A stretch of DNA of 41,791 nt from Microcaldota archaeon (lineage in GTDB: Archaea > Micrarchaeota > Micrarchaeia > Micrarchaeales > CABMGC01): positions 1-41,791 of the forward strand of contig JAJZJQ010000012.1 of NCBI GenBank assembly GCA_021851065.1, written 5' to 3'. The notes under the pieces were generated by a model, which ran no database searches, had not been told where the DNA came from, and saw only the letters and a program-made list of their open reading frames with translations. Of this stretch, positions 38,555-41,791 are shown one piece after another. The stretch's first letter is position 1. Each line of letters opens with the position of its first letter. Position numbers and translations under genes: made by a program.

Positions 38555-39448
38555 TCATGCGGCAGGCTTCTGTCCACTCTCCCCGTCTGCAGGCTTTGCC
38601 TCCTCCTGCTTTGGCTCTGCCTTGACCATAGGGTTTAGGCTAAGCGCCTCCCTAACCGCCCTTGCTATCAGCTTATCAGTTATTCCAGGCTCGTATATCT
38701 GCGCCCCAAGCCCAAGGCCCAGGGCTGACAGGTAGGCCTTCCTTATGAAGGCGTCTGCGTTGTACTGGGTCACTAAGCCTATCGAGGTAGAGAGTGCGTC
38801 TGCCTGTGCGAAGCTTGATGCAATCTGCTGGGTCACGAAATTAACATCTATGCCAAGCGCAGCCTCGTTAAAGAGCAGGTTGCCGTTCACAACTGCCTTA
38901 AGCTTTGTCCCTGCCTCAAACGGCATTATGTCCAGCATCTTCAGGGCCTTGGAGATTGCGGTGCTTATCTTGTCTCCCTTCTTCACAAGCACCTTGCTCT
39001 TAGATATGACTACCTTGCCCTTGTCTATCTTCACGTCTATGCCTGCAGTCTTCATGTCTGTGACTGCCTGTCCTGGCGCTATGCTTGTCTCCCCTGCCTC
39101 TATCGATATCTCGGAAGGCGCTATCTGGTTTGGCTTTGCTATAAGCTTCATCTTGTTTGATACTATTAATGCATTCAGCTCAGAGGGTTCCTTGTTGGAA
39201 AGCAGTATTGCGAAGTTTCCTGTTGCATAATCCTTGAGCCTTGCCAGCCTAGGGTCTGCGTCCATTATCCTGTGCGCAAGGCTCTTGCGGGCGACAATGA
39301 ACTTCACTTCAGGCTTAAGCCCGTTCCTTGCCTTCTGTACAAGGCTGTCAGGCACCGACTCAAGCGACATTATGCCTACAGTGCTGTACTTCTTGACCTC
39401 CTCCTGCATCTTTTTTACGTATTCCACCTTCTCTGACTTAAGCATCAT
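38555..39448 (-). CDS. rplP0: Large ribosomal subunit protein uL10 (P0), lacking the factor-binding tail
   Basis: Anchors the P1 stalk dimers to 23S rRNA. 297 residues, shorter than usual archaeal P0 (about 330-350). The rRNA-binding N-terminus (KVEYVKKMQEEVKKYSTVGI, then VSNKMKLIAKP) and the insertion domain (PSEISIEAGETSIAPGQAVT, KVLVKKGDKISTA) are present, as are the helical P1-binding segments (QQIASSFAQADALSTSIG, then QIYEPGITDKLIARAVREAL). The C-terminus ends PADGESGQKPAA with no acidic EEEAxxGLxxLFG tail, and none follows in another frame. It starts 4 bases after the uL1 stop. Confidence 0.93.
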   Translation of the reverse strand: MMLKSEKVEYVKKMQEEVKKYSTVGIMSLESVPDSLVQKARNGLKPEVKFIVARKSLAHRIMDADPRLARLKDYATGNFAILLSNKEPSELNALIVSNKMKLIAKPNQIAPSEISIEAGETSIAPGQAVTDMKTAGIDVKIDKGKVVISKSKVLVKKGDKISTAISKALKMLDIMPFEAGTKLKAVVNGNLLFNEAALGIDVNFVTQQIASSFAQADALSTSIGLVTQYNADAFIRKAYLSALGLGLGAQIYEPGITDKLIARAVREALSLNPMVKAEPKQEEAKPADGESGQKPAA

Positions 39449-39452
39449 AATA

Positions 39453-40085
39453 TCACGCTATCCTCATCGGCTTGCTCATAGTGAGCTTCACATAAGCCGA
39501 CCTTATCCTGTTGTTGCCCACCTTCCTCGTAACGCTGCCCATGACCTCATTTATGTTCTCGTACAGCTTGGCGGCATCCATGTCCTCGTTGCCCACAACG
39601 CAGTGTACTGTTGGCAGGTTCTTGCCCCTGTTCCTTATCGTTATCCTCTTGTTCAGCTCATTTGCCATGTTCGCCATGCCTGCGCTGCCTACCAGCGGCC
39701 TTGGCATCCTGTTCCTGGGGCCCAGAAACTGCCCAAGGCTCTTTGCCACCTGAGGCATGAGGGCCGGCTGGGCTATAAGCTCGTAATCCAGCAGTGAGCT
39801 GAGCCTTGCCGCATTTGCAGCTATTGCGGGTATGTCTGCGCCGTCTATCACCTCTATCCCGTTTTTGCGCGCCTCTTCGGAGAGGTTCCTGTCACTTGTG
39901 AAAATAGCTATCTTCTTCACTTTTCCCTTCCCGTTTGGCAGCACCACGTCAAGGTTGATCTTGTTGTCCTGCCTAGTGAAATCTATGCCTTTGAAATTTA
40001 TGGCTAGCTCTACCGTTTGCTTGAACTTCCTCTTGCCCTTGTTCTCGGCAATGAACTTGCCGAATTCCTCCGAGTAATCTGCCAT
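39453..40085 (-). CDS. rpl1: Large ribosomal subunit protein uL1
   Basis: Forms the L1 stalk at the ribosomal E site; 210 residues, standard archaeal length. FKQTVELAINFKGIDF near the start, LPNGKGKVKKIAIF, then FLGPRNRMPRPLVG in the centre and RNRGKNLPTVHCVVGNEDMD are family marks. In many archaea uL1 binds its own mRNA to regulate uL1-P0-P1. A strong ribosome site GGAGGGAT (40090-40097) lies 4 bases from the ATG, unlike the leaderless genes around, and allows such control. First gene of uL1-P0-P1. Confidence 0.96.
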   Translation of the reverse strand: MADYSEEFGKFIAENKGKRKFKQTVELAINFKGIDFTRQDNKINLDVVLPNGKGKVKKIAIFTSDRNLSEEARKNGIEVIDGADIPAIAANAARLSSLLDYELIAQPALMPQVAKSLGQFLGPRNRMPRPLVGSAGMANMANELNKRITIRNRGKNLPTVHCVVGNEDMDAAKLYENINEVMGSVTRKVGNNRIRSAYVKLTMSKPMRIA

Positions 40086-40089
40086 GTTT

Positions 40090-40128
40090 ATCCCTCCTGC
40101 AAGACTGCAGTGATTGCGGGAAAATAAG
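40090..40128 (-). promoter_or_regulatory. Promoter and strong ribosome binding site of uL1-P0-P1
   Basis: The minus strand has a TATA-like CTTATTTTCCC (40118-40128) and GGAGGGAT (40090-40097) 4 bases before the uL1 ATG. The gap up to 40314 is AT-rich; it contains only a 12-codon and a 15-codon ORF on the plus strand and no recognised feature. Confidence 0.45.
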
Positions 40129-40314
40129 CAGAATAGTATGGCATGATAGAATTAAATAACTATCTTTTGAGTGGACTCCTATAGGAAGTTTACAAATAGA
40201 CGAAAAGCGAATAGAGAGATGTCAAATAACGAATATGCAAAACTACTATGGGGACGATAACACTCCATAAATTTCATGGGTATGAAATAAAATAAGGTCT
40301 TTTGAGATCAGATG

Positions 40315-40518
40315 TCACTCCTTAATACCTCCAAAATCTTTGACTATGGCTGCTGTAATAATACCTGTATTTATGCGTTCCTGATGGTTAATGGTTATTT
40401 CAATTTTATCGCCAACTCTGTAGTTACTGCTCTTGTCCCCTATTCTAGTGGTAGCAGTTTTTTCCTCTCGTGTAAGCATGCCAGTATATTTCGGGAAGAA
40501 ATCTAACCGTTTAATCAT
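40315..40518 (-). CDS. Small ASCH-like domain protein, possibly truncated
   Basis: 67 residues. MIKRLDFFPKYTGMLTREEK, then TATTRIGD...YRVGDKIEITI resembles the start of ASCH (PUA-like) domains, which have an xFxxxxxxxILxGxKTxTxR pattern followed by a KxGDxV strand. ASCH domains are usually about 100 residues; here a stop comes right after IVKDFGGIKE, where the family would continue. It may therefore be shortened. AT-rich, with codon use unlike the ribosomal genes beside it. It overlaps the ITPase-like gene by 8 bases. RNA or nucleotide binding is the family role. Confidence 0.5.
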   Translation of the reverse strand: MIKRLDFFPKYTGMLTREEKTATTRIGDKSSNYRVGDKIEITINHQERINTGIITAAIVKDFGGIKE

Positions 40519-41096
40519 TTGGCATACCTCTAATCAGCCAAGTTCCTAATTTATTATAGTGCAATCTTTGTTGATATGCATTCCAAAAAGCATGCCATTC
40601 AATCTCATTAAGTTGTGCTATTGTTTTGTGCATATTACGCGGAATGAAGATCCTTTCTATAGCAAATCCGACGGTTCTCGATCCACTAGGCACTTTGGCA
40701 ATACTCCCATCTGTTAAGGTAGAAAATATTCTTAACGTCTGTGTTTTTGGATCGCCAAAAACAATAATATTTACAAATCGAGCCCTTCTATCATTTCTAG
40801 CACGTAATAAACCCACTATTTGCAAATCACTTAAATTAGCACACAGATGTTTAAGCAACGCCCCAGGAAAACCGTTCAAGGCCTTTATATACAAGCCATC
40901 ATCGCTTACTATAAACGGTTTTCGGGTGTATTTCATTGCTTGTCTTGCCTTATCAACAGCAACTTCTTTTATATTAAGCGATTGGATTTCTGCAAGTGCA
41001 ACTGTACGTTGCTTAACATTTATTTTGTAGTTGTCTAATACAGCATGTGCTATATTGAATTTGACCTTATTCGATGTGAAAAAAAACTAAGTCCAT
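40511..41096 (-). CDS. RdgB/ITPase-like NTP pyrophosphatase, broken by a frameshift in a T8 run
   Basis: The intact part from ATG 40936 shows KPFIVSDDGLYIKALNGFPG, then FVNIIVFGDPKTQTLRIFS and GSRTVGFAIERIFIP, the Ham1/RdgB/ITPase fold that removes inosine and xanthosine triphosphates. The N-terminal half reads in the same frame back to TSNKVKFNIAHAVLDNYK, the family start, but has no start codon. ATG at 41094-41096 begins MDLVFF and enters that frame only if the run of eight T (41079-41086) is seven. The corrected gene has 194 residues, normal for the family. It is either a real frameshift, a programmed slip or an assembly error. The ATG directly follows the upstream stop (TAAATG). Confidence 0.72.
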
Positions 41097-41546
41097 TTAA
41101 CCACTAATTCTAAGCTCTTGTTTTAATATATCACTAATATCCACAATAGTCTTATCAAGGTCATCATTTCTTACAATGTAGATTCTTGCACCTGTTTCAT
41201 TTGCAATTTGGTATGCAGCATTCCTTTCAGCATTTAATTCAAGATTAATTATTTCAAGATTATAAGCTCTCTGTATGTTACTATCCGCAATCCTTCTAGC
41301 TAATATTATCTCAGGGTCCGCTTCTATAACAACATGCGAACTTATTAGTGGTTGGTGACTCTTAGGGGTGAGAATGGCAACATTTCCTTCCAAGACTATC
41401 TGTACATGATGGGTATCAAAAATTACCACCCCATGCGGAAGTGTTTCTGCAAAATTAATTAGCTCCTGCTGGACTCTTAACAGTTCCTTGTCATTAAGCT
41501 CTCCCAAGGGCTTCTTATACGCATCCATAGCTAATTGAAATAGCAT
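41097..41546 (-). CDS. Archaeal adenylate-kinase-like protein lacking its N-terminal P-loop
   Basis: 149 residues. The sequence follows the second part of archaeal adenylate kinase (AdkA) or related P-loop kinases: LPHGVVIFDTHHVQI (VxxDTH strand), HVVIEADPEIILARRIAD (substrate and LID region), the NLEIINLELNAERNAAYQIA helix and GARIYIVRNDD near the end. The family begins with a GxxGxGKT P-loop about 45 residues earlier; no such sequence exists in any frame upstream, where the divergent ORF starts. The gene is therefore truncated or a fragment. AT-rich like the two genes after it, and packed against them without spacing. Confidence 0.55.
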   Translation of the reverse strand: MLFQLAMDAYKKPLGELNDKELLRVQQELINFAETLPHGVVIFDTHHVQIVLEGNVAILTPKSHQPLISSHVVIEADPEIILARRIADSNIQRAYNLEIINLELNAERNAAYQIANETGARIYIVRNDDLDKTIVDISDILKQELRISG

Positions 41547-41570
41547 TCGGCTTCAAAGGTTTTCAGAGAA

Positions 41571-41753
41571 ATGCCAAACTTCATCAAAAGGTATCCAGAC
41601 AAAAATTTCTGGGGTGGACAGCCTACAGGAACAAGTGTCGGGCCGGTAGGGCAGAACATCATACAGAACTACATCAGGAGGCAGGATGTCTCGTACGAAC
41701 CGTTCATGCCAGGCAGAGAAGAGGGTAAACAGACAAAGTTGCAGTTCAATTGA
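41571..41753 (+). CDS. Hypothetical small protein, 60 residues
   Basis: ATG-started frame with base use like the core genome rather than the AT-rich set beside it. The product is polar, Gly/Gln/Asn-rich (NFWGGQPTGTSVGPVGQNII, then YIRRQDVSYEPFMPG), with no membrane segment. No family recognised and no clear TATA box. It is divergent from the truncated kinase gene by 24 bases. Its last codons lie inside an inverted repeat (41741-41759). Confidence 0.4.
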   Translation: MPNFIKRYPDKNFWGGQPTGTSVGPVGQNIIQNYIRRQDVSYEPFMPGREEGKQTKLQFN

Positions 41754-41791
41754 AACTGCAGCGAGGGGTGAGATACCCCCGACGTAGTCGG
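41741..41791. repeat. Three consecutive inverted repeats at the window end
   Basis: GCAGTT/AACTGC around CAATTGA (41741-41759), then GGGGT/ACCCC around GAGAT (41765-41779), then CCGAC/GTCGG around GTA (41779-41791). The first overlaps the stop of the 60-residue ORF and contains AATTGAAAC, a common 3' end of CRISPR repeats. The set may be a terminator, the 5' part of a structured RNA or the first repeat of an array. It is cut by the window edge. Confidence 0.4.

Follow-up and report, generated by a model that had tools for sequence, protein, structure and literature searches.

Closest Described Systems

Proteins of the HAM1/RdgB/ITPA family (PF01725, TIGR00042) share TSNK, (E/D/S)D(S/D)G and FPG motifs, and in RdgB and ITPA the purine base is recognized at the positions of the GFG(Y/W/F)D and SHR motifs. 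Full-length archaeal adenylate kinases related to AdkA (PRK04040; 6pjw, 1ki9) carry the P-loop GxxGxGKT, and the ASCH superfamily includes the N4-acetylcytidine amidohydrolase YqfB. A defense-associated paralog of HAM1, KomB, which has an 'NGFPG' region, belongs to the Kongming system (KomABC; summarized in PMC12948488).

The locus analyzed here comprises three packed genes on the minus strand, namely a fragment of an AdkA-like kinase, a HAM1/ITPase-like gene and a short ASCH-like ORF. The window, by which we mean the whole stretch of DNA that was analyzed, is contig C6 (41,791 bases) of a 1.13-Mb genome in 36 contigs that is approximately 87.5% complete. Relatives of this genome are labelled Micrarchaeota in public records, and one is labelled Marsarchaeota. 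The three genes very probably represent an accessory operon of DPANN archaea that was acquired laterally and has since decayed. The operon comprises a kinase and a divergent HAM1 pyrophosphatase, here with an ASCH-like third gene, and we propose for the pair a role in the control of a nucleotide pool.

The HAM1/ITPase-like gene has the three motifs common to its family and differs from HAM1, RdgB and ITPA in that GFAIE and LHY replace GFG(Y/W/F)D and SHR, in that its subfamily is accessory rather than universal, and in that the gene follows a kinase gene. KomB resembles this subfamily as a HAM1-like protein, but has a His where the window subfamily keeps the catalytic Asp, and retains the base motif that the window subfamily lacks. 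The C-terminal two thirds of AdkA align with the window kinase, which unlike AdkA has no P-loop. The ASCH-like ORF shows the KT..TR...GD pattern and can be aligned from end to end with the ASCH protein of a relative, whereas it is truncated, lacks the Gly of GxKT and scores below every curated cut-off of the superfamily.

Composition, Limits and Packing of the Island

The GC content of positions 40326-41535 was 36.6%. The rest of the 41.8-kb window was used as the reference, and its other stretches of 1,210 bp had a mean GC content of 51.6% (SD 2.0, minimum 46.2%). GC3 was 0.28-0.35 in the three island genes versus 0.55-0.70 in the adjacent ribosomal genes. The first-pass annotation had proposed an AT-rich island beside ribosomal genes, to be checked by base composition and codon usage; GC and GC3 both differ clearly, and the island is an outlier in each. 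The limits proposed for it (40130-41570) are slightly too wide, since they take in part of a transposase gene remnant on one side and a MITE-like repeat on the other (Table 1). The packing was as had been described: the TAA of the kinase is followed directly by an ATG (TAAATG), and eight bases, ATGATTAA (40511-40518), are common to the ITPase-like gene and the ASCH-like ORF. No RNA family was detected at positions 39900-41791.

Table 1. Features of the island and its surroundings in the 41,791-base window.
Feature	Position	Strand	Evidence
rpl1 (ribosomal protein L1), native left neighbor of the island	39453..40085	-	Homologs in congeners
MITE-like repeat, ca. 145 bp, degenerate in the window	40181..40325	not assigned	Other copies in the genome
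ASCH-like ORF of 67 aa, truncated at the C-terminus	40315..40518	-	NF003443; ASCH profile of relatives
HAM1/ITPase-like gene, frame open from FFTSNK to stop	40511..41083	-	Ham1p_like; subfamily profile
T8 run (A8/T8) separating the ATG from the ITPase frame by one base	41079..41086	-	
AdkA-like P-loop kinase, N-terminal third missing	41097..41546	-	PRK04040; alignment with full-length G109 kinase
3' part of IS200-type tnpA, codons ca. 88-159	41536..41753 (remnant to 41791 at widest)	+	Copies in the genome
127 bp identical to the beginning of contig C9 (carrying pth2), on which the right side of the island continues	41665..41791	+	

The HAM1/ITPase-like Gene and Its Subfamily

The ITPase-like gene is a member of the Ham1p_like family (PF01725), with an E-value of 2.7e-16 and 60.4 bits for a 141-aa part against a gathering cut-off of 22.5. 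Its frame is open from FFTSNKVKF through to the stop codon, and both the TSNK motif (FFTSNK) and the acidic DSG motif (SDDG) are present. It falls below the TIGR00042 cut-off and, with its replaced base motifs, outside the canonical RdgB/ITPA proteins. The only in-line ATG (41094-41096) is offset from this frame by one base, the shift falling at the T8 run, and the gene is thus frameshifted as the first-pass annotation had stated. The run is the only homopolymer of eight or more bases within the window, and an error in the consensus sequence could account for the frameshift.

A subfamily profile (A1) was built from five sequences, and its scores separated accessory HAM1 proteins (above approximately 185 bits) from canonical ones (below approximately 145 bits). 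Of the 301 Micrarchaeota genomes, about 16 had a member of the accessory subfamily, and 13 of the 14 subfamily loci found in GTDB contigs were in DPANN archaea. TSNK and the acidic DSG motif are conserved among its members, whereas G(W/F)x(I/V)x mostly stands in place of GFG(Y/W/F)D, and LHY or similar in place of SHR. Because the base-recognition motifs are replaced, the accessory subfamily likely has an altered substrate. The subfamily profile matched 1b78 of M. jannaschii with an E-value of 1.9e-35, and the HAM1-like KomB (8zsg) was among the closest solved structures (E-value 5.6e-14). In the phylogenetic tree the window ITPase was nearest to L114 (G301) and G109 and not to its congener, with weak support and no strongly supported small clade, and this placement fits lateral exchange. 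The assembly of the same genome (G000) yielded no canonical HAM1 gene, which may sit in the missing part.

The Kinase Fragment and the IS200 Remnant

The kinase matched the archaeal adenylate kinase model PRK04040 at positions 58-188 of 189 (E-value 3.8e-12, under the curated cut-off), in agreement with the earlier description of an adenylate-kinase-like gene that lacks its P-loop. The N-terminal third that would hold GxxGxGK(T/S) is missing because a 3' fragment of an IS200-type tnpA takes its place, and the first few codons of the kinase ORF derive from this remnant. The remnant has an in-frame TAG near 41541, which is shared by a copy on contig C31 that is 98% identical; larger copies are on contigs C25 and C26, and the full copy on C26 is homologous to Y1 transposases (phrog_2577, E-value 1.7e-21). 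Six-frame translation of C9 did not reveal the missing N-terminus of the kinase beyond the insertion sequence. The window kinase had only 30-38% identity even to its nearest relatives, and AdkA-like copies of a more ordinary kind in other genomes scored far lower against it. No relative was found with the kinase as query in plasmids.

The ASCH-like ORF and the MITE-like Repeat

The third gene had been described as ASCH-like and possibly short. It is indeed short, its final codons and stop lying inside the MITE-like repeat, and the complete ASCH proteins of relatives have approximately 105-130 aa. Its ASCH identity was weakly borne out: the E-value was 0.048 against NF003443 and 0.0095 against the ASCH profile of relatives, where the ORF ranked first, ahead of its 200 shuffled versions and of every other ORF in the window, and there was no match to PF04266 (ASCH). 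We regard the assignment as weak, and membership of this gene in the module as tentative. The fold predicted from the single sequence (pLDDT 45) was too poor for a fold search, and the only match in phages was a weak one of 36 residues to a tail protein.

The repeat was classified as a MITE-like element since better-preserved copies on contigs C35 and C32 have the ends TTAGGAAGTTGACA...TGTCAACTTCCTAA and similar repeats of approximately 145 bp are present in the same genome (four copies, including that of the window) and in five relatives. It is short and non-coding with terminal inverted repeats; a target-site duplication is not firm. Ten copies were counted in the genome G026 alone.

Genomic Site Between rpl1 and pth2

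Homologs of rpl1 had 68-76% identity in most congeners and 59% in one, and the DNA at 39414-40160 aligned to that of the congener G004 at 78%. Homologous DNA was found in G004 on both sides of the island (78% and 73%), with a different gene in between and a gap of approximately 0.7 kb between the flanks versus approximately 2.07 kb in the genome studied. All 11 congeners have rpl1, and none carries the island next to it. Full-length orthologs at the same place in all relatives, named by the first-pass annotation as an outcome that would speak against acquisition, were therefore not observed. Matches to tRNA fragments beside the island were at chance level (7-12 bases), and no tRNA is located there in the window.

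Related Loci and Possible Mobility

The order of kinase followed by ITPase was found in three other genomes, and the ASCH-like gene was seen in this arrangement only in the window. In G109 (LSA5.bin40, from another family of the order) a 185-aa kinase with P-loop precedes a 191-aa ITPase with a gap of 14 nt. In L061/G301 (TL1-2.bin12, another DPANN archaeon, labelled Nanoarchaeota) the two genes overlap by 29 nt, and the P-loop of the kinase (L061:1231-1826; MAKLINLNGARGTGKST) is out of frame with the remainder owing to a frameshift at an A7 run. The congener G001 has a short C-terminal piece of the kinase 2 nt before the ITPase. These full-length counterparts, the 185-aa kinase with P-loop and ITPases of 190-200 aa, refute the alternative first considered, in which such small size would be the norm for members of a compact nucleotide-handling module.

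Just upstream of the kinase piece in G001 is an IS200 tnpA, with an orientation opposite to that in the window and a different cut point. The genus thus shows at least two cuts of the kinase beside IS200 elements, and position and orientation suggest that these were independent. The same locus (L027:4275-8752) has a 257-bp direct repeat (98%) of the 3' end of the ITPase gene, terminating in the 3' portion of a tRNA-Arg gene that overlaps the end of the ITPase. Between the two copies are approximately 4 kb that contain tnpA, the kinase remnant and a P-type ATPase-like gene. This repeat looks like the duplicated attachment site of an integrated element. In L061 a tRNA-Arg gene is located approximately 187 nt beyond the ITPase. 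Together, these two loci suggest that the module travels on integrative elements, which we treat as a lead and not as a result because no integrase was identified and no tRNA lies beside the window island. Visual inspection near the G001 repeat further indicated thymidine-kinase-like and nucleotidase-like ORFs and a possible tnpB fragment.

The G109 locus (L054:5405-7621, same as L059) is AT-rich for its contig and consists of a Mom-like gene, the full-length kinase and the full-length HAM1 gene. The Mom-like gene ends 10 nt before the kinase, and its protein marginally exceeded the cut-off of PF25680 (27.7 versus 27.1 bits). As the first gene of the operon it is a possible hint at DNA modification. 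Its fold from the single sequence (pLDDT 32) was too poor for a fold search. A viral origin was considered and rejected, as the ITPase, kinase and Mom-like queries had no relative in IMG/VR; phage records likewise contained no match to the ITPase or the Mom-like protein.

Proposed Role and Alternative Explanations

The proposal of the first-pass annotation that an acquired operon is now decaying is supported by the foreign composition, the absence of the island from all congeners at this site, the intact homologs in the same order elsewhere, and the fragments of mobile elements at both truncations. The operon would have landed between rpl1 and pth2, the kinase would have lost its 5' part next to the IS200 remnant, the ASCH-like gene would have been cut short at the MITE-like insertion, and a one-base frameshift would have arisen after the ITPase start. 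As sequenced, the operon should be non-functional unless slippage at the T8 run rescues the ITPase. Two long frames, of approximately 190 and 150 codons, persist without interruption, which suggests that the decay is recent or that some function remains. The remnant itself would represent ordinary genome decay, and the locus illustrates how MITE-like and IS200 elements may erode imported operons in tiny archaea.

We infer that in the intact relatives the substrate of the kinase would be an unusual (d)NMP; once host enzymes had taken the product on to the triphosphate, the HAM1 protein would split it into monophosphate and pyrophosphate. With the kinase feeding and HAM1 cleaving, the pair would most likely control the pool of one particular nucleotide. 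No description of a kinase-HAM1 pair was found in the literature searched, which recurs in tiny archaea and is a candidate, open to direct test, for a non-canonical-nucleotide activity that would be new in very small genomes. A broader and rather unlikely proposal is that a mobile kinase-HAM1 module, not described before, is passed among DPANN archaea and either senses one unusual nucleotide or both makes and breaks it, perhaps in connection with modified DNA as the Mom-like gene of G109 hints, for defense or element maintenance.

That the intact module is an antiviral system, which senses or destroys an unusual nucleotide by a logic like that of Kongming, appears improbable. KomB is a near structural relative, the distribution is mobile and patchy, and AbiE toxin-antitoxin genes accompany a related kinase within AT-rich DNA of G191; however, neither a KomA deaminase nor a SIR2-like KomC was recognized by eye in the ORF tables near the window HAM1 or related loci, KomB differs at the catalytic Asp and the base motif, PADLOC gave no match for the HAM1 protein, and no relatives were found in virus collections. 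The G191 locus in question (L055; G191:C20:1-8000) has a GC content of 29% and contains AbiEii/AbiEi genes and, beside the related kinase, an HD-domain gene.

We consider it quite improbable that the island is a functional, phase-variable or slippage-regulated module in which the T8 run toggles the ITPase and the truncated kinase now serves a different function. The run sits exactly at the frameshift, the ITPase body is without lesion and keeps its TSNK and DDG motifs, and the L061 kinase is also split at a homopolymer on a contig with approximately 71-fold coverage, but slippage can mend neither a kinase without P-loop nor an ASCH-like ORF without its end, and homopolymers are also sites of ordinary decay and errors. 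An assembly artifact, in which unrelated AT-rich DNA was joined through repeats to the ribosomal contig, is highly improbable: the contig does end inside a repeat that also starts or ends other contigs of the genome, but the left join lies in the MITE-like repeat with a unique flank, the right end overlaps exactly with C9, whose pth2 is expected next by synteny with G004, and AT-rich DNA is also present in C9 beyond the insertion sequence.

Besides the island and its kinase-HAM1 relatives, three clusters (L063, L064, L071) contained two HAM1 paralogs each, which were adjacent in L063 and L064. Neighboring genes in these clusters were, by eye, HAD-like, CYTH-like, Nudix-like and methyltransferase-like.
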